64,000 nt of DNA from a virus (IMGVR_UViG_3300001450_000001:81442-145441); one strand, 5' to 3'. Shown: positions 47,480-63,380, counted from the first letter of the stretch. The notes: a model not told the origin generated them from the letters alone. Program-made: numbers and translations.

Positions 47480-48786
47480 AGACACCAATTATAATGTGTA
47501 ATTGGAAGAGGACAGATAATATACCTAGAACTCTTGCAATGCTTGAAGGCCAAACAACTCATGAATTCGATTTGTATATTTGGAATAATAATGCTGATGA
47601 TAGTAAAAAACTAGATGAAATAGTGTCAATGTATAAGCTATCATATAATATTGAAGTTCACCATAGCAAAGATAATGTAGGAGGAATAGGAAGATTCTAT
47701 TTTGCAAAGAATCTAACAGATCAATACGAAGGCCCATGTATTTTTATAGATGATGATGTACAATTTGGTGAAGATATGGTAGAGACATTCTTATCAGAAT
47801 ATAGACCAGATACAATATTTTCATTTTATGCACATAGAATAAAAGAGTCCTACTGGGATAAGGAAGGAGTTGATACTCCTGGAGAGGATGTCGATTACTG
47901 TGGTACTGGTGGTATGATATTACCAATTCGTGTGTTTACCGAAAACGAACTTTTTGATAATTTGCCAGATAAGTACAAATTTATTGAAGATTTATGGTTA
48001 AGCTATTACTTTAAGCACAAATATAAAGGCAACCTTAAGAGATCAAATAATAATTTCATTCTTGAGTCTGATCAGCATGATCAAGGTAGACAGACTGAGT
48101 TAAGATCCAAGAAGGATGAGCTGCTTGACTTTTGTAAAGATACATTCATAAGAAATGAGACAAAACTTTCAAAAAAGTTTAATAACATGTTTGAAGAGAC
48201 CTATGTTGTAAATATGAAGTCAAGACCAGATAGAATGATAAGGTCAAAGTCTAGGTTAAAAGATCTTTCTATAAACTTTAGAAGGTTTGAGGCAGTAGAT
48301 GGCAATACACAAGCTAGACACCAAAACTTAAACTCAGGAGAGGTAGGATGCTATCTATCACATTTTAATATAATATCAGAGGCAAAGGCAAGGGGCCTAA
48401 AGTCAATTCTTATATTGGAAGATGATGTAGTATTTATTGACAATATGCTTGAAAAGTTTTTTGAAGGCTATAGTAATATACCAGAAGATTGGGAGATGAT
48501 CTATTTAGGTTGCAATCACAAAAAGCCATATACAAGAGTAAATGACAAAATAGTAAAATGTAATTTTGCATATACAACATCAGCTTATATTATAAAAGAT
48601 ACCGCCTACGACAAGCTACTTGAAGCAACAAGATTCATTAACAGACAAATTGATGTACAATATGCAGAGATGCAAGCTGCTGGCCAGCTAAATGCATATG
48701 CTTTCCACCCTTGGCTAATGTATCAAGAGGATGGATGGAGTGATATACAACAAAGAAATGTAGACTACGGAATGATGAGGTTATAA
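47476..48786 (+). CDS. Bifunctional glycosyltransferase, GT2-like plus GT25-like
   Basis: 436 residues with two domains. Residues 1-230: 'TPIIMCNWKRTDNIPRTLAM' and 'GPCIFIDDDVQFGEDMVETF', a GT-A fold with a DDD metal motif. Residues from about 240: 'TYVVNMKSRPDRMIRSKSRL', 'SGEVGCYLSHFNIISEAKAR' and 'SILILEDDVVFIDNMLEKFF', the signature of LPS-type GT25 enzymes. Such fusions could add two sugars in sequence. It overlaps both neighbours by a few bases. Confidence 0.82.
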   Translation: MKTPIIMCNWKRTDNIPRTLAMLEGQTTHEFDLYIWNNNADDSKKLDEIVSMYKLSYNIEVHHSKDNVGGIGRFYFAKNLTDQYEGPCIFIDDDVQFGEDMVETFLSEYRPDTIFSFYAHRIKESYWDKEGVDTPGEDVDYCGTGGMILPIRVFTENELFDNLPDKYKFIEDLWLSYYFKHKYKGNLKRSNNNFILESDQHDQGRQTELRSKKDELLDFCKDTFIRNETKLSKKFNNMFEETYVVNMKSRPDRMIRSKSRLKDLSINFRRFEAVDGNTQARHQNLNSGEVGCYLSHFNIISEAKARGLKSILILEDDVVFIDNMLEKFFEGYSNIPEDWEMIYLGCNHKKPYTRVNDKIVKCNFAYTTSAYIIKDTAYDKLLEATRFINRQIDVQYAEMQAAGQLNAYAFHPWLMYQEDGWSDIQQRNVDYGMMRL

Positions 48787-49544
48787 TGGCAAGTGTAATT
48801 ATAAAAGATAGTATCAATAATAATGGCCTCGGAAATACACTATTTCAGTTAGCAGCTGCAAAGGCAGCATCTTTAAGGGATGGTGTAGAAATGACAAGCA
48901 CAATACCTCCAGGATATAATGAGTATAAAGATAATATACTTAGAAATATAAAGATATCAGAAAGTATACAAAACAATATCTACAAAGAGCAGTCATTTGA
49001 ATATAATGAAATACCGCCAAACGTCTCACTAGATGGATACTTTCAGTCAGAGCAATACTTTTATGACTATGGTGGCTTTATATATGATATGCTCTCACCA
49101 ACAAAAGAGATAGAAGATTATATAGATAATAAATACGGAAACATATTATTCAATAGTCTTGGGATACATATAAGAAGGGGTGATTATATAAAATACCCAA
49201 CAATGCATCCAGTATGTAATATGGAATACTACTCAAAGGCTATAGGCTTACTAGCAGATAAGAAGTTATACAGTAATTACATAATCTTTAGTGATGATAT
49301 CAACTGGTGTAAGGATAACTTTAGTAGTGAATTTAACTTTATTGAAGGCGAGAAGGACTATATTGATATGTATACAATGTCTATGTGTAGCGACAACGTT
49401 ATAGCAAATAGTACATTTAGTTGGTGGGCTGCTTGGCTAAATAGAAATAGTGACAAAAGAGTTGTTGCACCTATGACTTGGTTTGGAACAGATAAGAAAC
49501 TAAATACAAATGACTTAATACCAAAAGAATGGATAAAAATATGA
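48786..49544 (+). CDS. Alpha-1,2-fucosyltransferase-like (GT11)
   Basis: 252 residues. 'NNNGLGNTLFQLAAAKAAS' at the start and 'LGIHIRRGDYIKYPTMH' (HIRRGDY, 128-134) are the GT11 hallmarks, the latter binding GDP-fucose. 'ANSTFSWWAAWLN' near 200 is also conserved in the family. GDP-fucose can be supplied by Gmd and Fcl encoded at 52.9-55.9 kb. The acceptor is unknown. Confidence 0.88.
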   Translation: MASVIIKDSINNNGLGNTLFQLAAAKAASLRDGVEMTSTIPPGYNEYKDNILRNIKISESIQNNIYKEQSFEYNEIPPNVSLDGYFQSEQYFYDYGGFIYDMLSPTKEIEDYIDNKYGNILFNSLGIHIRRGDYIKYPTMHPVCNMEYYSKAIGLLADKKLYSNYIIFSDDINWCKDNFSSEFNFIEGEKDYIDMYTMSMCSDNVIANSTFSWWAAWLNRNSDKRVVAPMTWFGTDKKLNTNDLIPKEWIKI

Positions 49545-49563
49545 AATTAAAAAAGTTAAGTAA

Positions 49564-49585
49564 TTCACAAAAAATTGTTATATTA
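49564..49585 (+). promoter_or_regulatory. TTCACA...TTATATTA promoter-like element
   Basis: TTCACA, an A-run, then TTGTTATATTA, ending five bases before ATG 49591 without a ribosome binding site. It matches 28655-28676 at 21 of 22 positions and the end of the 67-bp element at 30888 at 20 of 22. It opens a new unit inside the glycan cluster. Confidence 0.6.
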
Positions 49586-49590
49586 TACAT

Positions 49591-50211
49591 ATGAAAAACT
49601 TTGACAAAAACATAACACAATTAGTTTCTTACCCAAGAACAGGAAGTCACTGGGTAAGAATGGTAATGGAAAAATATCTTGGAGAATATTGCTTACCAAC
49701 ATCATTTTACAACTCTAAACTTCATTGGGGCTTTCACTTACACGATAGAGAAGTAGGAAATGGAGATGAAGGCATCACTGAGGGATTTGACAGAGTAATC
49801 TATTTATATAGAAATCCAGTTGATGTTGTATATTCTCTGCTAAAGTATGAAAGCTGGGGAGATGATAGAAGAGGTGAGATAATAGAAGAGTATAAAATCC
49901 ATCTTAATAGATGGCTAAATAACAATAGTGATATTAAACACATCATGTTTATAAAGTACGAAGATATAAAAGCCGACCCAGTCTCTTCATTTACAAAGAT
50001 TCTTGAGTTTATAGGATTCCAAGATGTTAGAGAGGACACTCTTGCAAAAATATGTAATGAGTCAACTTTAAAGAACCTAAAGCAGTCTATAGGTGATGAT
50101 AGTGTGATAAATGAAAACCACTTTGGTGGAGATTATAAGACTGAGAGAGAGAGATTTAGAGATAATTATGGTAGTACTATATTAAAGGAGTTTGAGGGGT
50201 TATGGCTGTAA
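49591..50211 (+). CDS. PAPS-dependent sulfotransferase
   Basis: 206 residues. The 5'-phosphosulfate loop is 'VSYPRTGSHWVRMVME' (12-27), and the 3'-phosphate segment is 'YRNPVDVVYSLLKYE' (73-87). 'IKYEDIKADPVSSFTKILEF' follows, as in cytosolic-type and bacterial sulfotransferases. Together these identify PAPS binding. PAPS can come from the phage APS kinase at 41285. It lies between two fucosyltransferase genes, so a sulfated sugar is a reasonable inference. Confidence 0.88.
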   Translation: MKNFDKNITQLVSYPRTGSHWVRMVMEKYLGEYCLPTSFYNSKLHWGFHLHDREVGNGDEGITEGFDRVIYLYRNPVDVVYSLLKYESWGDDRRGEIIEEYKIHLNRWLNNNSDIKHIMFIKYEDIKADPVSSFTKILEFIGFQDVREDTLAKICNESTLKNLKQSIGDDSVINENHFGGDYKTERERFRDNYGSTILKEFEGLWL

Positions 50212-51110
50212 AAGTAAACATATGGGATACAAATAATGCTCACTCAAATAGCTGGAAAGAAGCTGGCCTTGAGTGTGGTATAAGAATAGATAGCTCACCA
50301 CTTATTACTGGACCAGAAAATGTTGAATGGGTTAGAGGACTAAAGTCATTTGAAGGCATAACAGTATTTACAGATAGCTATCTAGATAGAGAATTAATTT
50401 CATCTGTAAACTCAACAGTCAAGGTAGGCCTAGTAATGGAGCCAATTGCACACAAATACAAACCATATAATGACATTCAGGAAGTTGAAGATCTACTAGA
50501 CTTTATATTTACATTTAATAAGCAATTAATAGATAAGGATCCAAATAAATATAAATTTATTCCAGCAGATTGGGTCTGTATAGAGCAAAAATCTCATGGA
50601 TTAAATGTAAATGGCAAGACAAAGCTTGTATCAATGTTGTACTCTAACAAGGGAGGGATAGATAGGCCTATGAGGCATAATGTTGCTGATATGTTTTCTG
50701 ATAAAATAGATCTTTTTGGAGGACCTGCAGGTGAAGTTAAATTAAAATCATCAACACTAAATGACTATATGTTTTCAGTAGCTATTGAAAACTCAGTAGA
50801 CAACTTTTACTATACAGAAAAGATCATTGATTGTTTTATAACAGGTAACATTCCGATATATAGAGGTGCCAAGAATATATCTGAATTCTTTGACAAGAGA
50901 GGTATAATAGAATGGAATACACTTGATGAGTTAGACACAATATTAAATAGTATAACAAAACAGAAGTATTATGATATGCTACCATTTGCACAGAATAATT
51001 TTAATATGGCTAAAAAATATATTAGCTCAGATGATGTACTTCTTGAATTAATTTATAAGTGCATTAGTAATAAAGAATATGACACAATAGGAGAGTTTAG
51101 ATATGAATAG
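50202..51110 (+). CDS. Alpha-1,3-fucosyltransferase-like (GT10)
   Basis: 302 residues. 'YMFSVAIENSVDNFYYTEKI' followed by 'IDCFITGNIPIYRGAKNISE' (about 189-228) is the diagnostic GT10 donor-binding block of alpha-1,3/1,4-fucosyltransferases. The start overlaps the sulfotransferase by ten bases (GGGGTT before ATG). A second fucosyl linkage in addition to the GT11 enzyme is implied. Helicobacter and eukaryotic enzymes share this motif. Confidence 0.88.
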   Translation: MAVKVNIWDTNNAHSNSWKEAGLECGIRIDSSPLITGPENVEWVRGLKSFEGITVFTDSYLDRELISSVNSTVKVGLVMEPIAHKYKPYNDIQEVEDLLDFIFTFNKQLIDKDPNKYKFIPADWVCIEQKSHGLNVNGKTKLVSMLYSNKGGIDRPMRHNVADMFSDKIDLFGGPAGEVKLKSSTLNDYMFSVAIENSVDNFYYTEKIIDCFITGNIPIYRGAKNISEFFDKRGIIEWNTLDELDTILNSITKQKYYDMLPFAQNNFNMAKKYISSDDVLLELIYKCISNKEYDTIGEFRYE

Positions 51111-51678
51111 AAAATTAAATAAAGCAGAAGAGTTTGACTTTTGGTTTGAAAATCCAGAGTTTGATGATCACGATCAATTCGGTAGTAGCTATTATGTTAA
51201 TACATTTTATAATGATATAGTAGTTAATCTGGACGTCCCAGATGAAGGCTATATAGTTGTAATGGGAACAGCAAGGGCAGTTTCTTTTGATATATTATGT
51301 AAGCATTTTGGTGAGGATAGGTGTATAGGATTTGACTTATATAATCCCTCAGAACACCCAAGAGTTAAAATTAAAGACTGTATGGAGTTATCTGATATAG
51401 ATAATATTCCTATTGCTTTTGCACACAATGATATGGGTAGCTTACCTCACACACCTGAGCTAAAGATACATACTCATAGATGGCTTGCAAATAATATTAT
51501 TGAAGGAGGCTATTTATTAGGAAATAATAATCTTAATAGAGCTAAATTTGACTTTGAAGGCTTAATGCATAAAATGAATTATAAAAATACACAGTTTTCT
51601 GACCTAGATAATAGATTAATTAAGAATCTACCTGTCGAAAGAATAGAAGGCTATATGTTATCAAGGAGAGATAAATGA
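51103..51678 (+). CDS. Methyltransferase-like Rossmann protein
   Basis: 191 residues. 'YIVVMGTARAVSFDILCKHF' and 'CIGFDLYNP' resemble the SAM-binding motif I and the acidic end of strand 2 of class I methyltransferases, but the glycine signature is weak. The rest ('NNIIEGGYLLGNNNL') fits the fold. It overlaps both neighbours. Could methylate a sugar; alternatively a non-catalytic relative. Confidence 0.55.
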   Translation: MNRKLNKAEEFDFWFENPEFDDHDQFGSSYYVNTFYNDIVVNLDVPDEGYIVVMGTARAVSFDILCKHFGEDRCIGFDLYNPSEHPRVKIKDCMELSDIDNIPIAFAHNDMGSLPHTPELKIHTHRWLANNIIEGGYLLGNNNLNRAKFDFEGLMHKMNYKNTQFSDLDNRLIKNLPVERIEGYMLSRRDK

Positions 51679-52328
51679 CAAAAATTATAAAGTTTGACAA
51701 ACAAAAATACCCATTTGATAAGATGGTTGCTAATCTATATGATGTACCATTAAGCACATTAGATGATAATCTAGACCATACAGGTGGAGATCTAGGTGCA
51801 GATACAGACTCACAATGGCATACAAGATTCTATGACAGGCTAAGACAAGGCTGGCCTGAGTTTATCTCTTTATACGAAGCATTTATAAAAGATGAGCTGG
51901 CACCAATGTTTAAAGACGAGTCAGAAATAATCTACCAAAAAACTCCTTCATTTAGAGTTAATCAGCCAGGAGGTAAGGCTATATATGTGCCTCATTGTGA
52001 TGGAGATAAAGATCATAAGCACCCAGCTGGAGAGATAAATATATTAATGCCTTTAACAAGAATGTACGGAAACAATGGTATGTATGTTGAGTCAATGCCA
52101 GGTTTAGGTGACTATAACTCTCATGAGATGGAGTTTGGAGAAGTTATGATGTTCTATGGAAATAGACAAAGACACTTTAATAAATTTAACGACACAAATC
52201 AGACAAGGTGTAGCTTTGACTTTAGGATTGTACCTCCTTGTAACTATGATGCAGGATATGAATTAGAAAGTGCAACAATGAAAAATAAATTTATTGTAGG
52301 TGGATACTATAGTATAATGGACAAATAA
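51675..52328 (+). CDS. Probable 2-oxoglutarate/Fe(II)-dependent oxygenase
   Basis: 217 residues. 'YVPHCDGDKDHKHPAGEINI' gives a His-x-Asp, 'FYGNRQRHFNKFNDTNQTRC' a distal His, and a nearby Arg can bind 2-oxoglutarate. This is the facial triad of the double-stranded beta-helix oxygenases. 'GGKAIYVPHCD' and 'GEVMMFYGN' resemble antibiotic/sugar-modifying members (StrG type). A role in oxidising a sugar of the cluster is plausible. Confidence 0.65.
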   Translation: MTKIIKFDKQKYPFDKMVANLYDVPLSTLDDNLDHTGGDLGADTDSQWHTRFYDRLRQGWPEFISLYEAFIKDELAPMFKDESEIIYQKTPSFRVNQPGGKAIYVPHCDGDKDHKHPAGEINILMPLTRMYGNNGMYVESMPGLGDYNSHEMEFGEVMMFYGNRQRHFNKFNDTNQTRCSFDFRIVPPCNYDAGYELESATMKNKFIVGGYYSIMDK

Positions 52329-52329
52329 T

Positions 52330-52947
52330 ATGGAAGATCAATTTATTAAACAAGAACATGACAGATGGTTCAGAGATATGGGTGACACAACAAGGCTACT
52401 TAACTATAATCTTAATAGTGATTCTGTAGTGTTCGACTGTGGAGGCTATATGGGCAATTGGTCTAGCAACATATATAGTAAGTATGAGTGTAATATACAC
52501 ATATTCGAGCCACTAAAAGAATACCAAGGATATATTAAGCAGCTATTAGGTAATAATAAAAAAGTGCAAATTAATAAATTTGGAGTATCAAACCAAAATA
52601 GAGCTGCAAATATATACTTACAGAAGGATGGTTCATCGGAATACCTAGTTCAAGACAAAGATGCAGACTATGAAGCTGTAAAATTAAAGAGACTTTCTGA
52701 TCTAATAGACTCAAATATTGACCTAATAAAGATGAACATTGAAGGTTCAGAATATGAAGTAGTAATAGACTTAATAAATACTAAGAAGATAAAATTTATA
52801 GATAATTTACTTGTACAATTTCATTCTGAAAATGATGGCATAGAAGGTGCAACTAATATAAGAAAAGATATACATGATAGTCTGAAGAAGACTCATAAGC
52901 TATCTTGGAACTATGAATTTTGCTGGGAAAGCTGGGAGAGATTATGA
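52330..52947 (+). CDS. FkbM-family methyltransferase
   Basis: 205 residues. 'SVVFDCGGYMGNWSSNIYSK' is motif I, 'NIHIFEPLKEYQGYIKQLL' has the acidic residue, and 'DLIKMNIEGSEYEVVIDL' is the FkbM signature (D-x-x-K-x-D/N-x-E-G-x-E). FkbM enzymes O-methylate sugars or other hydroxyl groups. It is one of two possible methyltransferases in the glycan cluster. Ends in an ATGA overlap with fcl. Confidence 0.82.
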   Translation: MEDQFIKQEHDRWFRDMGDTTRLLNYNLNSDSVVFDCGGYMGNWSSNIYSKYECNIHIFEPLKEYQGYIKQLLGNNKKVQINKFGVSNQNRAANIYLQKDGSSEYLVQDKDADYEAVKLKRLSDLIDSNIDLIKMNIEGSEYEVVIDLINTKKIKFIDNLLVQFHSENDGIEGATNIRKDIHDSLKKTHKLSWNYEFCWESWERL

Positions 52948-53849
52948 AATTACTAGTTACAGGAGGCACAGGATTAGTTGGTTCTGCAATAAAAGACGCT
53001 AACTTTAGGCTAAATTCTGCAGATGCTGATCTAAGGTGTGCTGACCAATGCAATAATATATTTAATGAAAAGAAGCCAACACACGTAATCCACTGTGCAG
53101 CAAGAGTAGGAGGCTTAGGTGGTAATATGGATGCAAAAGGCGAGTTTTACTATGATAATATAATGATGAACACTAATGTTATAGAGGCCTGTAGAAAATA
53201 TAATGTAGAAAAGCTTATATGCTTTTTATCTACGTGTGTATTCCCAGATAATGCCACTTACCCACTAACAGAGGAAATGATCCATGAAGGAGAGCCACAT
53301 AGTTCAAATTTTGGCTATGCATATGCAAAGAGAATGGCAGATGTACAAATTAGGGCATATAAAGAGCAATATGGACTAAAATACTTATCTGTTATACCAT
53401 GTGGTGTCTATGGAATAAATGATAACTTTAATATAAAAAATGGCCATGTAATTCCTTCACTAATACATAAGTGTTATATAGCAAAACACACAAATACAGA
53501 CTTTGAGGTTTGGGGTTCTGGTGAGCCACTAAGAGAGTTTTTATACTCAAAAGACATAGGAAAGATATGTAATTATTTGATAGAAAATCACAATGGAACA
53601 GATCCTATAATATTAACTAGTGGCCTTGAGTATTCTATAAAGGATATAGTAAGTTTAATAGTTAATGCAATGGAGTTTAAGGGGAATGTAAAGTGGCTTG
53701 ATGATAAACCAGATGGCCAATACAGAAAGCCAGCATCAAATAAGAGACTATTATCAATAATTCCAGACCTTGAGTTTACACCGATTGAGGTAGGAATAAA
53801 AGAGACTGTAGAATGGTTTACAGAGAACTATGAAAGGGCAAGAAAATGA
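52944..53849 (+). CDS. fcl: GDP-L-fucose synthase
   Basis: 301 residues from ATG 52944 (ATGA overlap). 'LLVTGGTGLVGSAI' (3-16) binds NADPH. 'ICFLSTCVFPDNATYPLTEE' and 'NFGYAYAKRMADVQIRAYKE' with Tyr125-x3-Lys129 are the GDP-fucose synthase active-site blocks. 'VWGSGEPLREFLYSKDIGKI' is a strongly conserved Fcl segment. It epimerises and reduces GDP-4-keto-6-deoxymannose. Together with Gmd at 54951 it completes GDP-L-fucose synthesis. Confidence 0.9.
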   Translation: MKLLVTGGTGLVGSAIKDANFRLNSADADLRCADQCNNIFNEKKPTHVIHCAARVGGLGGNMDAKGEFYYDNIMMNTNVIEACRKYNVEKLICFLSTCVFPDNATYPLTEEMIHEGEPHSSNFGYAYAKRMADVQIRAYKEQYGLKYLSVIPCGVYGINDNFNIKNGHVIPSLIHKCYIAKHTNTDFEVWGSGEPLREFLYSKDIGKICNYLIENHNGTDPIILTSGLEYSIKDIVSLIVNAMEFKGNVKWLDDKPDGQYRKPASNKRLLSIIPDLEFTPIEVGIKETVEWFTENYERARK

Positions 53850-54256
53850 TAGAGAAAATTTATTCAAAAATAGATGGCAAATTATTACATATTGTCAACA
53901 GATTTGATTATATTAAAACAAGAACTGATATTGTGCCAGAAGAAAACTTTATACAATGTGCGACACTTAAAATGGAAAAGGGAAAGACATTCCCAGCACA
54001 TAAGCATATAGTAAAAGAAAGACACTATGACAAAAAGATAGCACAAGAATCTTGGGTAGTAATAAAAGGTAGTGTTAGGTGTAAGTTCTATGATGTTGAC
54101 AATACACTAATTGCAGAGCCAATACTTAAGCCTGGCGATGCTAGCTTTACACTATATGGTGGACACACATATGAGATCTTAGAAGAAGATACAATAGTAT
54201 ATGAATATAAAACTGGCCCATATGAAGGCCAAGAATTTGATAAGGAGTTATTATAA
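53846..54256 (+). CDS. Cupin-fold protein
   Basis: 136 residues. 'FPAHKHIVKERHYDKKIAQE', 'WVVIKGSVRCKFYDVDNTLI' and 'LKPGDASFTLYGGHTYEI' follow the cupin motif pattern, with His residues available for metal. Cupins of this sort include sugar epimerases/isomerases and binding proteins; in this cluster a sugar-modifying role is likely. No specific family. ATGA overlap with fcl. Confidence 0.65.
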   Translation: MIEKIYSKIDGKLLHIVNRFDYIKTRTDIVPEENFIQCATLKMEKGKTFPAHKHIVKERHYDKKIAQESWVVIKGSVRCKFYDVDNTLIAEPILKPGDASFTLYGGHTYEILEEDTIVYEYKTGPYEGQEFDKELL

Positions 54257-54961
54257 ATGGCAAATAAAAAATACACAGTCTGGCCAGTAGGCAAGCTACC
54301 TAAGGAGCTACAAAGGCCTGAGCTAGACCAACTAAGAGAGGCTGGTTATAAATGGGATGACCCAAGAGATGCAATAGATATGTTTGAGGAAAAGGTTGCA
54401 AAATTTGCAGGTAGTAAATATGCAGTTGCATTAGATACATGTTCACATGGCCTATTCTTGTGCATGAAATATATGAAATGTAAAGGTAAGATAACAATAC
54501 CTAAAAACACATATTGTTCACCTCCAATGCAAATTATACATGCAGGCTGTGAGGTTGAATTTGAAGACTTAGAATGGTCAGGTGTCTATCAATTTAAGCC
54601 ATATAATATATGGGATGGTGCAGTTAGGTGGCAAAAAGGGATGTATGTTGGTAATGATGCACTACAAGTTGTGTCATTCCAGATAAAGAAAAGGGTACCT
54701 ATAGGAAAAGGCGGAATAATAATGACAGACAGCAAAGAGGCGTATGAGTGGTTTAAGTATGCATCTTATGATGGAAGAGACCTAACAAAGCAATATATGG
54801 ATGATGACTTTAATATGATAGGTTGGCACTTTTATATGACACCAGAAGATGCTGCAAGAGGAATACTCTTAATGGACCAAATACCAGAGTGGAATGAAGA
54901 CACTGGAAACTCAAATACATACTCAGATATATCAAAAAAGGAGATCTTTAATGGAAAATAA
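54257..54961 (+). CDS. Short DegT/StrS-type PLP aminotransferase
   Basis: 234 residues, against about 370 for the family. N-terminal 'FEEKVAKFAGSKYAVALDTC', 'ITIPKNTYCSPPMQIIHAGC' and 'VVSFQIKKRVPIGKGGIIMT' (lysine for PLP) match the large domain of sugar aminotransferases. The C-terminal domain is missing; the frame ends in the gmd overlap without sign of a frameshift. A full enzyme would make GDP-perosamine from Gmd product; this short form may be a specialised or reduced enzyme. Confidence 0.75.
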   Translation: MANKKYTVWPVGKLPKELQRPELDQLREAGYKWDDPRDAIDMFEEKVAKFAGSKYAVALDTCSHGLFLCMKYMKCKGKITIPKNTYCSPPMQIIHAGCEVEFEDLEWSGVYQFKPYNIWDGAVRWQKGMYVGNDALQVVSFQIKKRVPIGKGGIIMTDSKEAYEWFKYASYDGRDLTKQYMDDDFNMIGWHFYMTPEDAARGILLMDQIPEWNEDTGNSNTYSDISKKEIFNGK

Positions 54962-55937
54962 AAAAGCATTTATAACAGGAATATCAGGCCAGGATGGAAG
55001 CTATCTTGCAGAATATTTAGTAGAATTAGGATATGAAGTTCATGGAATTGTTAGGAGAAATTCAACAGCTGAAAATCAACATAATAGAATTGATCACCTA
55101 GATGACAAGATTCATACATACTATGGAGATCTATTAGATCAAGGCGGAATTGAAAGACTATTGGACAAGATACAGCCAGATGAAATTTATAATATAGCAG
55201 CACAGTCACATGTAAGAATAAGCTTTGACATACCACAATTTACAGTTCAGACAAATGCGCTAGGTGTATTAAATATATTAGAGGCATATAGAAGATCTTG
55301 CCCTAAGGCTAAGTTCTATCAGGCAAGCTCATCTGAGATGTTTGGACTATCAGTTGATGATGACAAATTCCAAAGAGAAACAACACCAATGAATCCAGTG
55401 TCTCCTTATGGTTGTTCAAAGGTATTTGGCTATAATATAACAAGAAACTATAGAAGAGCATATAATCTTCATATATGTAATGGTATTCTTTTTAACCATG
55501 AATCTCCACGTAGAGGTAGTAATTTTGTAACAAATAAGGTAGCAAAAGCAGCTGCAAGGATAGCATTAGGACTACAAGATAAGCTTGAACTAGGTAATAT
55601 GGATTCATATAGAGACTGGGGGCATTCATATGACTACGTTAGAGCAATGCATCAAATAATGCAACATGCATGGCCAGAAGATTGGGTAGTATCAACAATG
55701 CAAACACATTCAGTTAGAGAAATGTGCCAAATAGTATTTGATAGGGTTGGCCTAAATATGTATGATCATGTAGTACAAAACTCAGCATATATGAGACCGG
55801 AAGAGCTACCATATCTTAGAGGTGACTCTACAAAAATTAGAAAAACTTTAGGATGGAAGCCAGAATATACTTTTGAAGCTATGATGGAAGAGATGGTTGA
55901 CCACTGGTTAGAATATTATAAGGCTGAAGCTAAATAG
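54951..55937 (+). CDS. gmd: GDP-mannose 4,6-dehydratase
   Basis: 328 residues from ATG 54951, eight bases after AAGGAG; longer frame starts lie in the preceding gene. 'AFITGISGQDGSYLAEYLVE' (GxxGQDG, family-specific), 'SSSEMFG' (126-132), 'SPYGCSK' (Tyr-x3-Lys, 151-157), 'ILFNHESPRRGSNFVTNKVA' and 'GDSTKIRKTLGWKPEYTFEA' are all Gmd hallmarks. It converts GDP-mannose to GDP-4-keto-6-deoxymannose, the substrate of Fcl. Confidence 0.95.
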   Translation: MENKKAFITGISGQDGSYLAEYLVELGYEVHGIVRRNSTAENQHNRIDHLDDKIHTYYGDLLDQGGIERLLDKIQPDEIYNIAAQSHVRISFDIPQFTVQTNALGVLNILEAYRRSCPKAKFYQASSSEMFGLSVDDDKFQRETTPMNPVSPYGCSKVFGYNITRNYRRAYNLHICNGILFNHESPRRGSNFVTNKVAKAAARIALGLQDKLELGNMDSYRDWGHSYDYVRAMHQIMQHAWPEDWVVSTMQTHSVREMCQIVFDRVGLNMYDHVVQNSAYMRPEELPYLRGDSTKIRKTLGWKPEYTFEAMMEEMVDHWLEYYKAEAK

Positions 55938-56408: not shown

Positions 56409-57011
56409 ATGTATACAAGAAAACAAATTGAAGAAGCAGTAATCAACAAAGGATACAAGTGGTTTGAAAGTGGAGACTTAAATGTCAACATAGTAGGGGT
56501 AAGAAACGACGAAACAAAAGGTAAGGTAACAAATAAATTTGATGATCATATAACAATATCTTATAAGATAGATGGTGAATGGCAATTTGAATGTTATAAA
56601 TGTACAACAGATCCTGGAGATAATTGGATGGATAACCCAATGATGTCTAAAGGTTGTGCAATTCTAAAACCAGGACAATATAGAGGATCACATAAGCTTA
56701 GGCTACATGGTGGAAAGTATTTGGCTCTAGGCCAACAAAAACCAGTAACAGTATATAGAGATGCTAATCGTGATGATAACTATGATCTTGATGAGTCAAA
56801 AACTGACACAGGATTATTTGGAATCAATATACACAGAGCAACAGCATTGTCTGGTAAAACATCCACCTATGTAGACAAATGGTCTGCAGGTTGTCAAGTA
56901 ATAGCATCAAATGATGATTGGATGGAATTCTTAGGAATTTGTCAAGCAGCAAGAGAAAAGTGGAGTAATAACTTCACATATACGCTTATTAATAGTGGTG
57001 ATATAAAATAG
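56409..57011 (+). CDS. Endolysin-like protein with L,D-transpeptidase-like fold
   Basis: 200 residues from ATG 56409, set by GAGGAGAAAT; an upstream in-frame ATG at 56397 overlaps this ribosome site. The whole protein is one domain homologous to residues 975-1189 of the hub protein. 'LFGINIHRA' (136-144) and 'KWSAGCQV' (157-164, Cys162) form the His/Cys pair. 'QKPVTVYRDANRDDNYD' is also shared with the hub domain. L,D-transpeptidase-fold enzymes act on peptidoglycan peptides. Lysis is inferred from the neighbouring holin-like and lipoprotein genes. Confidence 0.7.
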   Translation: MYTRKQIEEAVINKGYKWFESGDLNVNIVGVRNDETKGKVTNKFDDHITISYKIDGEWQFECYKCTTDPGDNWMDNPMMSKGCAILKPGQYRGSHKLRLHGGKYLALGQQKPVTVYRDANRDDNYDLDESKTDTGLFGINIHRATALSGKTSTYVDKWSAGCQVIASNDDWMEFLGICQAAREKWSNNFTYTLINSGDIK

Positions 57012-57020
57012 GAGAATAAA

Positions 57021-57326
57021 ATGGCTAAAAAGGCTACAGTAAAGAAGGCGGCTAAGAAAGTTGTCAAAAAAGTTTTGGATAAAACAGAACTAGATGAAAA
57101 GCTCATTGCAAAATATAATAAGAACAAATCTACTTATGATTTGGCATTATGTTATATTAATTGCTATGGTGCATATATAACTGCAATAGGTGTTGGTTGT
57201 ATGTTTGGTGTTAATAATTGGGTGGCATTAGGTTTATTGGCAGTGACTGCTGGATGGGCTTGGTATGCTGTCTGTAAATGTAAGCCATGTAGGGGTGGTG
57301 AGAAAGGAGCTTGTTGCAATGGATAA
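57021..57326 (+). CDS. Membrane protein with Lys-rich start and Cys-rich tail
   Basis: 101 residues. A Lys/Ala-rich start (first 20 residues) is followed by a short helix and hydrophobic segments at about 45-62 and 66-83 ('WVALGLLAVTAGWAWYAVC'). The end is unusually Cys-rich: 'CKCKPCRGGEKGACC'. GAGAATAAA precedes the ATG. Next to the endolysin-like gene it could be a holin, though the Cys tail is odd and may bind metal or be lipid-linked. Confidence 0.6.
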   Translation: MAKKATVKKAAKKVVKKVLDKTELDEKLIAKYNKNKSTYDLALCYINCYGAYITAIGVGCMFGVNNWVALGLLAVTAGWAWYAVCKCKPCRGGEKGACCNG

Positions 57327-57702
57327 TTATGTAGAGAAAGGCAAATTTAATTCAAAGAAGTGGATTGCCAACAATACAACACCAATAAACGAACATACAA
57401 TTACTTTTACTTCAGATGAAATGAAAGTACTACATAACACTGGTGAGCTTGTAAAAACTGACCCAGAAGGCAAAGAGCATACTTATATGTACTCAGAGTC
57501 TAAAGGTGTTAATGAAGCAGGTATGGATAAAGGATTTGAAAAGGAATTCGAATCAAGCTGCAATGCATTTATAAACCATATAAAAGAAGAAATAAAGACT
57601 GCTAAAGGTTCTGATAAGTCAACATTGCAAAAAATGCTAAAGAATCTTTTAACTGTAAAGGGTTATCCTAAGTTGATGGCTAAAATTGTAGGGTACGAAT
57701 AA
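57319..57702 (+). CDS. Hypothetical protein
   Basis: 127 residues from ATG 57319, ten bases after AAGGAG; an upstream frame opening at 57265 is only a shadow of the Cys-rich tail. Lys/Glu-rich and helical, with 'AFINHIKEEIKTAKGSDKST' near the C-terminus. It overlaps its upstream neighbour and touches the next (TAATG). No family recognised. Confidence 0.6.
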   Translation: MDNYVEKGKFNSKKWIANNTTPINEHTITFTSDEMKVLHNTGELVKTDPEGKEHTYMYSESKGVNEAGMDKGFEKEFESSCNAFINHIKEEIKTAKGSDKSTLQKMLKNLLTVKGYPKLMAKIVGYE

Positions 57703-58091
57703 TGGATAAATACATCTACAGAGCTAAACTTGAAAGAGTTGTTGATGGTGATACCATTGATGCTATGATTGATATAGGATTTGATATCTGGATTAAAAGA
57801 AGAATTAGATACATGGGTATTGATACTTGGGAATCAAGAACAAGAGATCTTGATGAAAAGAAAAAAGGGCTTGCAGCAAAGGCTAGAAACAAAGAGCTTT
57901 TGGAAAAGGTAAGTGCTAAGTCTGGATATTTTAGGCTAAAGTCTCATGGTGTAGGAAAGTATGGTAGAGTTCTAGGTGAATTATTTATACAAGACATAGA
58001 TGGAAACTCTATGTGTATTAATGAGCAATTAAAAGTTGAAGGTCACGCATATGAATACGATGGTGGCACAAAAAAAGTATTTGGAGCTTAA
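57702..58091 (+). CDS. Micrococcal (SNase-like) nuclease
   Basis: 129 residues, the size of a minimal SNase domain. 'LERVVDGDTIDAMIDIGF' with Asp ligands, 'RIRYMGIDTWESR' (catalytic Arg and Glu) and 'VGKYGRVLGELFI' (second Arg) are the family motifs. There is no signal peptide, so it would act in the cytoplasm or after lysis. It may degrade host nucleic acid. TAATG overlap upstream. Confidence 0.88.
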   Translation: MDKYIYRAKLERVVDGDTIDAMIDIGFDIWIKRRIRYMGIDTWESRTRDLDEKKKGLAAKARNKELLEKVSAKSGYFRLKSHGVGKYGRVLGELFIQDIDGNSMCINEQLKVEGHAYEYDGGTKKVFGA

Positions 58092-58092
58092 T

Positions 58093-58305
58093 ATGAGAAT
58101 AATTGCAATACTAATGATACTAGCATTAAGTTCATGTATGGTGTCACAAAAAACATTTGATGAAAAATGTTGTAAAATGGAAGCACAAATTAGTGAACTT
58201 GAAGGTAAAGCTCGTGGAATGGAATTAAAAGAGCAGTTATTAAGACAGGCAATTCATGATTTACAGAATGATACAATAGTACCTCATGACCCTGCAAATG
58301 ATTAA
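58093..58305 (+). CDS. Small lipoprotein, spanin-like
   Basis: 70 residues from ATG 58093 (two bases after the nuclease stop; earlier frame starts are in that gene). 'MRIIAILMILALSSCMVSQ' is a lipoprotein signal with lipobox LSSC. The rest is a coiled coil ('MEAQISELEGKARGMELKEQ'). Small coiled-coil lipoproteins next to endolysins are often outer-membrane spanins; no inner spanin partner is proven, though 62482 is a candidate. Confidence 0.65.
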   Translation: MRIIAILMILALSSCMVSQKTFDEKCCKMEAQISELEGKARGMELKEQLLRQAIHDLQNDTIVPHDPAND

Positions 58306-58325
58306 TTAAATAAAGGAGAATTGTT

Positions 58326-58478
58326 ATGAAAATAAATTGGATAAACGGATTTGATGCCGGTAATAAAAAAGAAAAGTACTACCTAGAGTTTAGGATAGGT
58401 ACTTTTACAGTATTAGAAATTAAAATAGAAAAATCTAAGTTTAGATTTATGATATTAAATTTGGGGTTTGAAATATGA
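58326..58478 (+). CDS. Small protein, unknown
   Basis: 50 residues after a good AAAGGAGAATTGTT site, ending in an ATGA overlap with the T9SS-substrate gene. It reads 'WINGFDAGNKKEKYYLEFRI' then 'VLEIKIEKSKFRFMILNLGF', beta-rich and basic. No family recognised; coupled translation ties it to the secreted protein. Confidence 0.6.
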   Translation: MKINWINGFDAGNKKEKYYLEFRIGTFTVLEIKIEKSKFRFMILNLGFEI

Positions 58479-61402
58479 GAAAATTATTATTAGTATTGGC
58501 TTTATTGCCAACAATGTTATTAGCACAAAATAGTTGGATAAACATACAACTATTAACAGATAATTATCCATCAGAAACAAGCTGGAATATTACACCTCCA
58601 GGAGGTTCACCTATTATTATAGGAAATGATTCAATCACAGAAGCTAATTTTTTATATGATACAATTATTCCAATAGGAGGAGATATTGTTGTATCTATAT
58701 TTGATCAGTATGGTGATGGATTAGCTGCTTCGCAATGGGGTGGAACTGATGGATGGTTTTTAATTCAAAATGATTGTCAAGATACATTATTATATGTAGC
58801 TGGTAATTTTGGGCTATCATATATAGATACATTAACAATTGCACCTTGTGCACCACCTGCACCAGATGTGTTTGGATGTATAGATACAAATGCATTAAAC
58901 TATGACTCACTAGCAACTGCAGATGATGGTAGTTGTACATATCCTGCCTGTGGTGGGATTTTGTCGTCTAATGCATATCAAAATTGTTATCCAGGAGGAC
59001 AAGCCTTAATTGTATTTGAATGGACTACAGAAGATTATAATCCTTCTTGTGAAACAGTTCAGGTATGGTATACAAATGCAGAAGGTGTTGGACCATATCA
59101 ATACGGTGTACCAGCAAATGCAACTAATTTTGCAGTAAATGCAGGTAATGGCCAAATGCCACCTAATTGGAGTGTAGAACATTATTTACAAGTAGAGTTT
59201 GCAGATGGCACAATGTCTGATACTATTACTTACACACCTACTCCATGTATAGATGGTTGTACAGATCCTACTCAAATATCTTATAATCCTTGGGCAACAA
59301 ATGATGACGGAAGTTGTGCTGGTACAATATGTGATACAACAAATGAATACCAAATAACAATGGAAATTACATTAGATAACTGGCCAGGTGAAACATCATG
59401 GATAATGAATAGCTTAGGGGTTATTGACTCAGTACTTGTAGGAGAATATGACTTTAATGATATAGGACAGACATACACATATAATTTTTGTGTAGACCAA
59501 AATTCAGGGTTTGAATTAATAGTTAATGATGACTTTGGTGATGGAATGGCAGGTTCTACATCTGGTGGAACAATGGATGGTTCAATTGTTATTTACGATT
59601 GTACAGGTGACACTATTTGGTATATGGACAATCCAGGCTTTGGAAATACTTTATATTCAGGAGCACAAACAGCAACACCTTGCCCTACAATATCAGAAAT
59701 ACCTGGATGTACAGATGATGATTATGTAGAATTTAATCCCCAAGCAAATGTTGATGATGGATCTTGTACTAACCTACATATTTACGGATGTACTAACCCT
59801 AATGCATTTAACTATGACTCAACAGCTACTATGATGGACTTAATACCAGATTGTAATTACGAATTATGGATTGGAGATGCTGGAGGAGATGGCTGGGGTA
59901 ATTCATATATAGGTGTATATCAGAATGGTATTAATCTTGGAACTTATACATTAGGCCCAGGAAATTATCAAAATACATGGAATATAATTCTTGATCCAGG
60001 TGTACCAGTAGATGTATTCTATTTTGAAGTAGGTGGACCTCAACAACCACCACAAGAAGTACAATTTCAAACTTGGCATAATTCATTTAAGCTAACAAAT
60101 GCTAATGGTGTTGAGTTATTATATGAAGGACAAAATCCATTTGCAAATAACGGTCAAGGAGCACTTCAAGGATTTGATTCTCCATTCTTTACAAAATATA
60201 CAGCAATACCATTTTGTGGAACAACATGTATACCAACAGTGTTAGGATGTATGGATTCTACTGCATTTAATTATAACCCTAATGCTAATACAGATGATGG
60301 AAATTGTATTCCTGAGATATTAGGTTGTACTAATGATTTAGCATTTAATTACAATCCATTAGCTAATGTAGATGATAATAGCTGTGTACCAATTATTACA
60401 GGATGTACTGATACAATAGCAGATAACTATAATGCTTCTGCAAATACAGATGATGGATCTTGTTATTATATAGGTTGTACAGATATTACAGCTCTTAATT
60501 ATGACCCAACAGCAACAGTAAATAATGGGTGTATTTATCCAGTGTTAGGTTGTACAGACCCAACAGCATTTAACTATGATCCATTAGCTAATGTAGATGA
60601 TTCATCTTGTATACAAGTTGTAATTGGATGTATGGATGTAACGATGTTTAACTATGATCCACTAGCAAATACACCATCTGGTAACTGCATACCATTTATT
60701 TATGGATGTACAGATTCAACACAATTTAATTATGACCCACTAGCAAATACAGATAATGGAACATGTGAACCATTTGTCTATGGTTGTACAGATAATACAT
60801 CATTAAACTTTAATCCACTAGCAAATACATTAGATAATTCATGTTGTTATATAGCTGGATGTACTCAAGATTGGTCATTAAACTATGACCCAGATGCTTG
60901 TTATGATGATGGTAGTTGTATTGACATAGTGATAGGTTGTACAGATGTAAGTGCATGGAATTATGATCCATTAGCAAATGTATCAGACTCAACATCTTGC
61001 TTATATAATGCAGGATGCTATGGAGGACCAGGAATTCCTTATTGGTTAAATGATGGATGCTATGCTTGGGTAATTGATGTAGATGACTATTGTTGTACAA
61101 ATAGTTGGGATGCAAGTTGTCAATCAATGTATGACTATTGTCAATTAGGTTGGCCAGTAGGGATAGATGATATATCAGCACTAGGAATAGTAGTTTACCC
61201 AAATCCAACTAATAACATATTAAATATAGAAACAAGGCTTGATGTTAGGGTTGATTTATATGATATGATGGGTAGAACAATATTAAGTGAGGCAGGAAGT
61301 AATACAATAAGATTAAGCTTAGAGGGTGTTTCTCCAGGTACATATAATATGGTCATAACACATAAAGAAAATAGATACAGTAAGAGGATAATAAAACAAT
61401 GA
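58475..61402 (+). CDS. Secreted repeat protein with T9SS sorting domain
   Basis: 975 residues. Signal peptide: 'MRKLLLVLALLPTMLLAQ'. Two beta-domains (about 20-125 and 297-405) share 'SETSWNI'/'GETSWIM' and 'YGDGLA'/'FGDGMA' segments common in flavobacterial exported proteins; a third 'GGDGWG' domain lies near 470-580. Fourteen GC(T/M)D...NYDP...DDGSC units follow, ten in tandem (590-842). Residues about 905-975 are a type IX secretion sorting domain: 'VVYPNPTNNILNIE', 'VDLYDMMGRTIL', 'LEGVSPGTYNMVI' and 'YSKRIIKQ'. Known proteins of this type cross the outer membrane by T9SS and attach to the cell surface. Function in infection is unknown. Confidence 0.9.
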   Translation: MRKLLLVLALLPTMLLAQNSWINIQLLTDNYPSETSWNITPPGGSPIIIGNDSITEANFLYDTIIPIGGDIVVSIFDQYGDGLAASQWGGTDGWFLIQNDCQDTLLYVAGNFGLSYIDTLTIAPCAPPAPDVFGCIDTNALNYDSLATADDGSCTYPACGGILSSNAYQNCYPGGQALIVFEWTTEDYNPSCETVQVWYTNAEGVGPYQYGVPANATNFAVNAGNGQMPPNWSVEHYLQVEFADGTMSDTITYTPTPCIDGCTDPTQISYNPWATNDDGSCAGTICDTTNEYQITMEITLDNWPGETSWIMNSLGVIDSVLVGEYDFNDIGQTYTYNFCVDQNSGFELIVNDDFGDGMAGSTSGGTMDGSIVIYDCTGDTIWYMDNPGFGNTLYSGAQTATPCPTISEIPGCTDDDYVEFNPQANVDDGSCTNLHIYGCTNPNAFNYDSTATMMDLIPDCNYELWIGDAGGDGWGNSYIGVYQNGINLGTYTLGPGNYQNTWNIILDPGVPVDVFYFEVGGPQQPPQEVQFQTWHNSFKLTNANGVELLYEGQNPFANNGQGALQGFDSPFFTKYTAIPFCGTTCIPTVLGCMDSTAFNYNPNANTDDGNCIPEILGCTNDLAFNYNPLANVDDNSCVPIITGCTDTIADNYNASANTDDGSCYYIGCTDITALNYDPTATVNNGCIYPVLGCTDPTAFNYDPLANVDDSSCIQVVIGCMDVTMFNYDPLANTPSGNCIPFIYGCTDSTQFNYDPLANTDNGTCEPFVYGCTDNTSLNFNPLANTLDNSCCYIAGCTQDWSLNYDPDACYDDGSCIDIVIGCTDVSAWNYDPLANVSDSTSCLYNAGCYGGPGIPYWLNDGCYAWVIDVDDYCCTNSWDASCQSMYDYCQLGWPVGIDDISALGIVVYPNPTNNILNIETRLDVRVDLYDMMGRTILSEAGSNTIRLSLEGVSPGTYNMVITHKENRYSKRIIKQ
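60242..61000 (+). repeat. Tandem GCTD/NYDP/DDGSC protein repeats
   Basis: Ten tandem 23-27-residue units (residues 590-842 of the secreted protein) share Gly-Cys at the start, Asn-Tyr-(Asp/Asn)-Pro in the middle and Asp-Asp-Gly-Ser-Cys at the end. Each unit has two cysteines, suggesting one disulfide per unit, and the Asp clusters could bind calcium. Four more units occur upstream as spacers. Confidence 0.85.
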
Positions 61403-62472
61403 AAAAAATACTAGTAATTTTATTAGCAATATTAATTGCATCTTGTGCAGTCCCAAATAAGTGCTGTGCACAAGAGAAAAAAGTAGATCTTAAAAAGATA
61501 TTTAAGTTTGCAACATTTTATGGCGCAATCAACGGAGGAAATTCAGTTTCTGATGTAGATGTATTTTCAGTAAACAATGGATTGTCTACTCAAACAATTG
61601 CAACACCATTTGATTATTCAATTACATTCGGTGTAAGAAAGATTGCTAGGTTAGGATATGAAAATAGAGCAAATACATTCTATAATGGTACAGAAAATTC
61701 ATTTAGTGATGCTGCTACTATTGGAAAGTTAAAGGGGTTTGAGTTTTTATTCGAGGCAGACTACACAAGACAGCAAGGTACTAATTTCTTAAATCAAAAC
61801 CACTTTTTAAGATATGTTGCAAACGATTGGATTGCTAAGGTTGAATATTTACAAGATGGATTTGCAGACATAGAATACTTTGAAGCTTCCGAGAGATACA
61901 GATATAAACTAGGAAACAAGTTATCATTCAATGTAGGTGCAGTACAGAGATTGGCTGAACCTTATGGCTATGATCCTTTGGAAGAGTGGCTATTATCAAA
62001 TGGCAATCTACACTATACAGAATTAGCAATACAAGAGGGCTATAGTGTACAATTTGATGGTCAAGGTGGCGTTGCATATATTAATCAATCTGGTAACGAA
62101 GTAGCTACAAGCACAGAGGTCTGGGAAGCTGTTGTTATACCAACAATGTTGTCTGAGTATACCGAAAACAAAAGAAATGAATTAAAAAGTACACTTCAAC
62201 ACTCTGTTGTAATTGGATTTGACTTTTATCATTACACAAAGACATTTTGGGTACATTCATGGGGTAATTTAATGCCATATCACTATGATGATGGTGGTGA
62301 ATTTAGCTACCATGCTTATAATGGTGGCCAATGGATAGACTATTCAGGTGGTTTGATATTTGGATATAAGTTTGATAAGCACTTAGGTTGCTTTATAGAG
62401 GGTAAATATAATAAGTACTGGAACCGTAATTGGCATGACTTTAGTATAGGTGTTAATTACGTCATATTTTAG
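61399..62472 (+). CDS. Exported protein, probable outer-membrane beta-barrel
   Basis: 357 residues. The N-terminus has a signal sequence with a possible lipobox 'LIASC' at residue 16 and an alternative cleavage after 'CCAQ'. The mature part is rich in alternating aromatic strands ('FLFEADYTRQQGTNFL', 'GFDFYHYTKTFWVHSWG', 'GLIFGYKFDKHLGCFIEGKY') and ends 'DFSIGVNYVIF', a C-terminal Phe typical of barrels. It overlaps the T9SS substrate gene (ATGA). It might change surface receptors, for example to block superinfection; this is inference. Confidence 0.65.
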   Translation: MKKILVILLAILIASCAVPNKCCAQEKKVDLKKIFKFATFYGAINGGNSVSDVDVFSVNNGLSTQTIATPFDYSITFGVRKIARLGYENRANTFYNGTENSFSDAATIGKLKGFEFLFEADYTRQQGTNFLNQNHFLRYVANDWIAKVEYLQDGFADIEYFEASERYRYKLGNKLSFNVGAVQRLAEPYGYDPLEEWLLSNGNLHYTELAIQEGYSVQFDGQGGVAYINQSGNEVATSTEVWEAVVIPTMLSEYTENKRNELKSTLQHSVVIGFDFYHYTKTFWVHSWGNLMPYHYDDGGEFSYHAYNGGQWIDYSGGLIFGYKFDKHLGCFIEGKYNKYWNRNWHDFSIGVNYVIF

Positions 62473-62481
62473 GAGAATGAA

Positions 62482-62766
62482 ATGGCAAAAGAGTTAAACG
62501 AAGATACAGGCTTTAAGGTCAGTATAAAAACATTAATAGGAATAGCATTTGCAATTGCAACTGTTGTAGGTATGTGGTTTGCACTACAAGCGGATATTCA
62601 GGAAGCAAAAGAACTTCCGGTCCCACCACCACCAGATGTCACAAGAATGGAATTTGACATGAAAGATAAAAATATACGTCTAACTATCGAAAATACTGCA
62701 GATGATGTGGAAGAGTTAAAAGAAGACTTAGATAGAATAGAACAAAAAATAGACAGACTCAGATAG
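62482..62766 (+). CDS. Single-span membrane protein with coiled coil
   Basis: 94 residues. One hydrophobic span at about 16-36 ('TLIGIAFAIATVVGMWFAL'), a proline-rich hinge ('PVPPPPDV') and a C-terminal coiled coil ('VEELKEDLDRIEQKIDRL'). This layout suits an inner-membrane spanin or holin accessory; the lipoprotein at 58093 would be a possible partner. AGGAGAATGAA before the start. Confidence 0.65.
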   Translation: MAKELNEDTGFKVSIKTLIGIAFAIATVVGMWFALQADIQEAKELPVPPPPDVTRMEFDMKDKNIRLTIENTADDVEELKEDLDRIEQKIDRLR

Positions 62767-62775
62767 GAGATAGTT

Positions 62776-63135
62776 ATGAAAACAAAATTAGGTTATTTAC
62801 TAACAATATTATTTTTACTATGTATGTCTACAGCAATAGGCCAAACACTAAAACTAGGCAGTGATCTTACTATAGTACACTTTAATGCAGGATGGAACTC
62901 TGCAAATGATGTCGAATGGGTCTCAAGCCTAAATGATGCAAAATTAAAATCTTGTGACATTGCAACAGATACAAAGGCTCAAAATAAATACGAAATAGTA
63001 GTTGTACCAACAATTATTATATTTTATGAAGGTGAAGAAGTTAAAAGGTATCAAGCTGATATATCTTTTACAATGAAAGTAACAAAAGATGAGGTTCAGG
63101 AGGCAATAGACGAAATTTTAATGGACTCATTTTGA
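62776..63135 (+). CDS. Exported thioredoxin-fold protein without CxxC
   Basis: 119 residues. Signal peptide 'MKTKLGYLLTILFLLCMSTA' with cleavage near 'IGQ'. The fold pattern is thioredoxin: 'LTIVHFNAGWNSANDVEW' where active enzymes have W-C-x-x-C, and 'VVVPTIIIFYEGEEVKRY' with the cis-Pro strand. The two redox cysteines are replaced by Asn/Ala, so it is unlikely to be an oxidoreductase. It may be a binding or scaffold protein in the periplasm. Confidence 0.7.
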   Translation: MKTKLGYLLTILFLLCMSTAIGQTLKLGSDLTIVHFNAGWNSANDVEWVSSLNDAKLKSCDIATDTKAQNKYEIVVVPTIIIFYEGEEVKRYQADISFTMKVTKDEVQEAIDEILMDSF

Positions 63136-63143
63136 TATTTATT
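63134..63143 (+). promoter_or_regulatory. GATATTTATT motif before holin-like gene
   Basis: GATATTTATTAT overlaps the preceding stop and lies about 22 bases before the next start; TATAGAGGAC supplies the ribosome binding site. Another copy of the recurring motif. Confidence 0.4.
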
Positions 63144-63164
63144 ATAAAATTATAGAGGACTACT

Positions 63165-63380
63165 ATGTGGAATATATTCAAAGATGATAATAACTGGAAT
63201 GAAAAAGCCATTGTTGGCTTTATTGCGTTTATTATTATGTGTTTAATTATGATTGCTGATCTAGTAACTGGTTGGGTTGGAAAAGACCTAGTTATAAATG
63301 AGTTTGTTTATGATTCATTCGTATTAGTTGTTCTTGGTTGCTTTGGAATAGCAGGCTTGGAAAAGTTTGCAAAAAAATAG
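63165..63380 (+). CDS. Holin-like two-span membrane protein
   Basis: 71 residues. Two hydrophobic spans (about 15-36 and 48-66) are separated by a 'TGWVGKDLVINEF' turn; the tail is 'LEKFAKK'. Small two-span proteins with a basic end are typical holins (class II). Its place next to spanin-like and endolysin-like genes supports this, although several small membrane proteins in the region compete for the role. Confidence 0.6.
   Translation: MWNIFKDDNNWNEKAIVGFIAFIIMCLIMIADLVTGWVGKDLVINEFVYDSFVLVVLGCFGIAGLEKFAKK

Follow-up and report, generated by a model that had tools for sequence, protein, structure and literature searches.

A predicted type IX secretion cargo in a conserved envelope gene module of marine phages

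The DNA analysed here, a stretch of 64 kb referred to below as the window, covers positions 81442-145441 of a 145,441-bp IMG/VR record (IMGVR_UViG_3300001450_000001). The record belongs to a T4-like myophage, taken to be a large marine phage of Bacteroidota, in which terminase, portal, major head protein and baseplate wedge families were found. Within a run of eleven genes at window positions 56409-63380, a 975-aa protein (58475-61402) ends in a type A sorting domain of the type IX secretion system (T9SS), and hence the phage appears to encode a cargo for a secretion system of its host. The cargo gene recurs with three others, encoding a predicted outer-membrane beta-barrel of 357 aa, an inner-membrane coiled-coil protein of 94 aa and an exported thioredoxin-fold protein of 119 aa that seems redox-dead. 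Our favoured reading, which remains tentative, is that these four genes form a conserved envelope module, probably made late in infection, that would use the host T9SS to display a host-like adhesin ahead of lysis.

The secretion cargo and its three partners

The sorting domain at the C terminus of the cargo (~61193-61402) was recognised by TIGR04183 (4.4e-11) and PF18962 (1.7e-11), with scores above the curated cut-offs of both models (42.6 bits vs 23, and 44.7 vs 27). It is absent from the account of the window given by an earlier first-pass annotation. Proteins with such a domain cross the outer membrane via the T9SS, a system of Bacteroidota and their relatives (PMC7468147). At the other end of the protein, a signal peptidase I (SPI) type signal ends in ..MLLAQ, and an end of the ..AQ type is kept in the homologues (heuristic plus conservation). 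The body in between consists of predicted beta-sandwich domains, a Cys-rich domain and about ten GCTDxxAxNYxPxAxxDDGSC repeats. The fold predicted for the first 555 mature residues was uninformative, with a low pTM (0.35) and structural matches to generic Ig/FnIII-type beta-sandwiches and phage tail-tip domains.

Among the relatives, TIGR04183 recognises 77 of the 94 distinct C-terminal ends of the cargo. All 13 large phage records contain exactly one sorting domain each, and the match is missing in 15 of 20 small records. Many small phages have a shortened cargo tail (e.g. ..DLLGRPTKIIKNKLLLFIYSDGSVEKKLIK); such tails (L108, L121, L123, L132, L133, L155 and others) keep a D-x-x-G-R motif and a Lys-rich end and have lost the YPNP strand. 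The tail of these small marine phages is possibly a reduced sorting signal.

Cargo length ranges from ~650 to 1465 aa among the relatives and its domain content is variable, whereas the barrel is nearly constant. The central domains and repeats of the cargo were also found in large proteins of 23 further genomes from the order of one metagenome-assembled genome (MAG) that bears a relative. These genomes are mostly small (0.9-1.8 Mb), and the identity to the cargo is ~31-41% over the domains. The cargo therefore resembles a host surface protein, and looks like one that was captured by the phage. A Flavobacteriales MAG holding a relative has 42 sorting-domain matches, which makes a T9SS likely there and indicates nothing more.

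The second member of the module is the 357-aa protein encoded at 61399-62472, predicted to be an exported outer-membrane beta-barrel. Its AlphaFold model (mean pLDDT 77) is a barrel of ~12 strands, and a 37-row alignment shows a C-terminal beta-signal with an aromatic end (NYVIF). At its N terminus a lipobox and an AQ site are both present; most homologues have a plain SPI signal. Structurally, the model matches the EstA barrel domain, Tsx and NalP, with Z 12.8-13.6 (VIA). Barrels of this size look alike, so no function can be deduced from these matches. Signs of a catalytic outer-membrane enzyme were looked for: OMPLA, OmpT and LpxR are structural neighbours only as common 12-strand barrels, and inspection of the invariant residues by eye found none of their catalytic motifs, a result that leaves room for an enzyme. 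PorV and PorP structures are absent from the barrel fold lists, which excludes no relationship. The viral protein A0A516LKJ4 in BFVD is like the barrel at 22% identity (Foldseek 1.2e-20), and its source phage may be a cultured relative.

The third member (62482-62766) has an N-terminal transmembrane (TM) segment, a Pro-rich linker and a coiled coil, and is conserved at 59-90% in more than 45 loci. With its N-terminal TM and periplasmic coiled coil it has the shape of an i-spanin; matches to spanin families did not rise above noise. The fourth (62776-63135) has a thioredoxin fold according to profile comparison with PDB thioredoxins (best 1e-8), and PF00085 was matched by 24 of its 25 family members at E up to 1. 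Its signal ends in IGQ and was missed by the heuristic, and a ..GQ/AQ/SQ end is present in nearly all 25 aligned homologues. The CxxC active site is absent: WNSAN or FNEAN (as GWNSAN/GFNEAN) stands in its place across the alignment, so that the protein is no conventional disulfide enzyme.

The four genes recur together in 72 viral loci of IMG/VR that hold cargo relatives, and the set was found in T4-like as well as small marine phages. In the 33 barrel loci flanked on either side by over 5 kb, which are a sample of the best matches rather than a random one, the cargo and thioredoxin-fold genes were always present within 6 kb of the barrel gene, and the coiled-coil gene was present within that distance in 30. 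The barrel itself was found in at least 581 IMG/VR stretches vs 4 loci in ~85,000 bacterial and archaeal genomes. In the order of one of the MAGs concerned it was present in 1 of 296 genomes, the sole match being the phage-like contig of that MAG itself. By sequence similarity the barrel is phage-specific, with no bacterial counterpart in the genomes searched. The phage module is also held by a MAG labelled as the archaeon Nitrosopelagicus (L081, CALBOT010000064.1), almost certainly through a binning error.

Searches of 50,697 phage records by tblastn found none of the cargo, barrel or coiled coil. No meaningful match to the barrel consensus appeared in these records even at E up to 10, matches to the isolated sorting domain were weak (E >= 0.07), and comparison with cultured phages at the DNA level gave no useful match. 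All four genes of the module are maintained under purifying selection. In close pairs, the barrel had a dN/dS of 0.04-0.14, the coiled coil one of 0.01-0.24 and the whole cargo one of 0.03-0.22, with values below 0.5 for its sorting domain; the thioredoxin-fold protein evolves faster (0.02-0.58).

The eleven-gene run and its neighbourhood

As the first-pass annotation had described, the eleven genes at 56409-63380 are consecutive, all on the plus strand and so close together that the gaps between them measure only -8 to +29 nt. The run that it called an island has no clear borders: the packing runs upstream into genes for sugar-nucleotide and glycosyltransferase (glycan/GMD) proteins and downstream to the contig end. 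Conservation as a block was borne out for the four-gene core, which is kept in many phages; the other seven genes come, go or move.

The first gene (56409-57011) encodes a 200-aa endolysin-type protein without export signal, which matches phrog_3000 (1e-35) and the endolysin family phrog_33083 (7e-15), in agreement with the peptidoglycan-active protein proposed before. It bears an H..SAGC motif, seen by eye, and its start is backed by homologues opening with 'MYTRE'. The last gene (63165-63380) encodes a 71-aa holin-like protein with two TM segments. As in a holin-endolysin cassette, a holin-like TM protein adjoins a putatively peptidoglycan-active protein without export signal in relatives: homologues of the first gene lie directly behind homologues of the last in five loci (L015, L016, L017, L045, L055). 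From these features the 71-aa and 200-aa proteins look like holin and endolysin. A second endolysin-type domain lies at the C terminus of a 1189-aa protein (10472-14041), which is probably virion-associated; its gene and that of the 200-aa protein share 73% DNA identity over 96 bp.

Between the endolysin-type and cargo genes lie five small ones. At 57021-57326, a small membrane protein candidate has a Lys-rich N terminus and a hydrophobic hairpin, with homologues in ~18 loci whose place varies. The product of 57319-57702 is soluble and of no assigned family at E < 0.01, with few homologues nearby. The nuclease noted earlier (57702-58091) is indeed Staphylococcal-nuclease-like (PF00565, 4.5e-6; phrog_452, 4e-38) and has no signal peptide. 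A small lipoprotein with a coiled-coil-like tail (58093-58305) might by its size and type be an o-spanin, but has homologues only in two relatives (L012 and L032). Finally, a 50-aa protein (58326-58478) has homologues up to 96% identical, often directly 5' of the cargo gene; its gene shares 4 nt with the beginning of the cargo gene, here and in many relatives, and in other cases is placed behind the barrel.

The claim of at least four export signals (58093, 58475, 61399, 62776) was upheld by the heuristic together with conservation in homologues, the first of these being of the lipoprotein type (LSSC). Genes with such signals are enriched in this region (4 of 11 vs 6 of 160 in the remainder of the record; Fisher p 0.0016). 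The region was picked post hoc, and by the strict heuristic on its own the count is 3 of 11. Three or more membrane proteins had been proposed as well; one TM at 62482 and two at 63165 were found, and the hairpin at 57021 falls below the TM cut-off.

Directly upstream, at 43243-55937, lies a glycan cassette with group 1, GT25/GT2 and GT10 fucosyltransferase-like glycosyltransferases, a sulfotransferase, an FkbM methyltransferase and an epimerase, together with aminotransferase-like and GDP-mannose dehydratase-like proteins recognised by eye. This cassette may modify surface sugars of the host or the virions. Further upstream, a GroEL-type chaperonin is encoded at 37293-38951 (phrog_5725, 7e-158). 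A scan of the window for tRNA genes found none. The T4-like late promoter motif TATAAATA occurred 15 times vs 14.5 expected and the Bacteroidota -33/-7 motif 4 times vs 3.3 expected, and the count for sigma-70 promoters was below chance.

Possible roles of the module

In Flavobacterium johnsoniae, SprB is a large, repeat-rich surface protein exported by the T9SS, and the gene for an outer-membrane protein, SprF, lies adjacent to its gene. A comparable arrangement is our favoured reading of the phage module, which is probably made late and usually lies near holin and endolysin genes. Sec would carry the cargo across the inner membrane, and the host T9SS would carry it across the outer membrane. 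The cargo would then be displayed on the outside of the cell, where the phage barrel would be its partner in the outer membrane, much like SprF for SprB, while the coiled-coil and thioredoxin-fold proteins may link or assist it across the periplasm. Before the holin fires, the infected cell might thus be coated with a host-like, variable adhesin, or the output of the T9SS might be diverted. Either could mask T9SS-dependent phage receptors, and so reduce superinfection and the re-adsorption of progeny to debris.

We infer a function in receptor masking and exclusion, or alternatively in helping outer-membrane rupture. Masking or diversion is favoured because mutations in gld and spr (T9SS) genes of Flavobacterium columnare gave resistance to phage V156 (PMC9233685), and because a host-like cargo that varies is paired with partners that stay constant. 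The first-pass annotation had argued that the surplus of genes beyond lysis points to remodelling of the envelope before lysis, and that late-only expression would speak against this. The surplus stands in so far as the exported and envelope proteins exceed a minimal holin-endolysin pair and adjoin lysis genes, one of them being aimed at the surface and one at the outer membrane; the conserved unit, however, comprises four genes and not eleven. Export of a T9SS cargo has to precede holin firing, however late the protein is made, and hence late-only expression would not contradict a role before lysis.

Several observations weigh against surface display followed by masking. The 17 remaining cargo tails of the 94 no longer fit the sorting-domain model, and in small phages the cargo gene is not always next to the barrel gene. 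PorP/SprF models were not matched by the barrel in NCBIfam or in Pfam (37 members, E up to 1), although remote barrels may escape such profiles. Variable domain content is by itself no proof of receptor masking, and the presence of a T9SS in the host is an assumption. Furthermore, the neighbouring lysis genes suit a role in lysis equally well.

The main rival, which we consider somewhat less likely, is a non-canonical lysis of the outer membrane. Here the inner-membrane coiled coil, periplasmic thioredoxin fold and outer-membrane barrel would form a trans-envelope complex that, once the endolysin has done its work, breaks the outer membrane open or fuses it, replacing Rz/Rz1 spanins, and the cargo would be an accessory that loosens surface attachments. 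The topology of the module, which spans inner membrane, periplasm and outer membrane, is consistent with such a complex. So is its company: a holin-type or endolysin-type gene lies within 6 kb of the barrel in 49 of 60 loci (flanks of at least 5 kb), comprising four unrelated endolysin-type kinds and two holin-type kinds (among them amidase, M15 peptidase, DUF5675 and the type of the window itself), and in L080 an amidase gene is directly behind the thioredoxin-fold gene. These 60 loci are short, so that part of the proximity is due to chance, and distances in whole records are the better evidence. Among the large records, which are related to each other, 12 of 13 have one copy of the holin-like gene, and 9 of these 12 copies lie no more than ~3 kb from the barrel. 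Yet, in G005, G010 and G012 the holin-like gene lies ~35 kb or more from the barrel, beside an endolysin-type gene, which tells against an outer-membrane lysis complex. In addition, the coiled coil is short (~30 aa) and without spanin-family support, and lysis does not need dedicated surface display of a protein of ~1000 aa. The evidence does not decisively separate masking or diversion from outer-membrane lysis.

An improbable explanation is that the cargo is a host-derived auxiliary gene, carried like a moron, that helps the infected cell, for example in particle adhesion or nutrient capture. Its host-like domains would fit, as would the T9SS cargos of Cryophage, which are variable accessory enzymes (PMC7468147). 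In contrast, a moron would hardly occur once in each of the 13 large records, keep the same partners and be strongly conserved among phages of unrelated types.

It is very improbable that the module proteins are virion components, such as an adhesin or fibre, with misleading export signals: although the small-phage module sits between the gene of a giant virion-type protein and putative structural genes, and GCTD repeats occur in other large phage proteins without signal peptides, conserved Sec signals and a sorting domain under purifying selection would take the proteins out of the cytoplasm, where virions are assembled. The giant proteins directly upstream of the barrel in small phages measure 2400-3200 aa (L108:2799-10004, L132:1087-9972, L133:317-9967) and are probably internal virion proteins; one of them, run against Pfam, gave no match.

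Related systems and biological meaning

Phage-encoded T9SS cargo was known earlier from crAss-like BACON phages in 2019 (PMC6949934) and from Cryophage in 2020 (PMC7468147). As in our case, the products of these phage genes carry a T9SS sorting domain at their end and are presumably exported by the host system. The Cryophage genes differ in being variable accessory genes, termed a unique occurrence in the 2020 paper (PMC7468147), whereas here a single cargo belongs to a conserved four-gene module of many marine phages. A search of the open literature, which leaves out most subscription papers and all bioRxiv preprints outside PMC, turned up no account of this module.

With SprB/SprF the module shares a big, repeat-rich T9SS surface protein and a neighbouring outer-membrane protein gene. 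However, its barrel fits no PorP/SprF model, its sorting domain is of type A and not type B, and it is phage-encoded and adds a coiled-coil protein with a TM segment and a thioredoxin fold that lacks cysteines. Rz/Rz1 spanins likewise combine an inner-membrane coiled-coil protein with an outer-membrane component near holin and endolysin; in the module the outer-membrane part is a beta-barrel, and the thioredoxin fold and T9SS cargo have no counterpart in spanins. Phage-encoded porins such as PA-2 Lc show that a phage can carry an outer-membrane barrel able to alter surface receptors. These porins, others of which are found in BFVD, are unrelated in sequence to our barrel and are not coupled to a secreted surface protein.

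Among cultured phages, the terminase of our record is closest to those of Microcystis phage Mel-JY01 (59%; L161, PP395634.1), despite the stated cyanobacterial host of that phage, and of Flavobacterium phage immuto (54.8%; L162, MW353175.1). Neither sorting domain nor barrel was found in Mel-JY01. Immuto, a T4-like flavophage, was the only one of 13 cultured Bacteroidota phages checked in which the sorting domain was found. It has exactly one sorting-domain protein, which contains a cohesin domain and lies in a run of exported proteins (10.5-16.4 kb) that includes a C-type lectin. Proteins of the same run resemble curli-secretion components by eye and had no match in Pfam. Immuto differs from our record in its cargo, and a search of it for barrel relatives was negative. 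It offers a tractable system for testing how phages use the T9SS.

Bacteroidota are among the main marine heterotrophs, and in flavobacteria phage resistance repeatedly maps to genes for the T9SS and gliding. It is possible, albeit far from assured, that hundreds of marine Bacteroidota phages share a module of T9SS cargo and phage barrel that recoats the infected cell with a host-mimicking protein, as a T9SS-dependent system for exclusion or against re-adsorption, of a kind that has not been described. If so, a large unannotated block of marine viral genes would be explained, and the T9SS would be not just a path by which hosts become resistant but also a system that phages take over.

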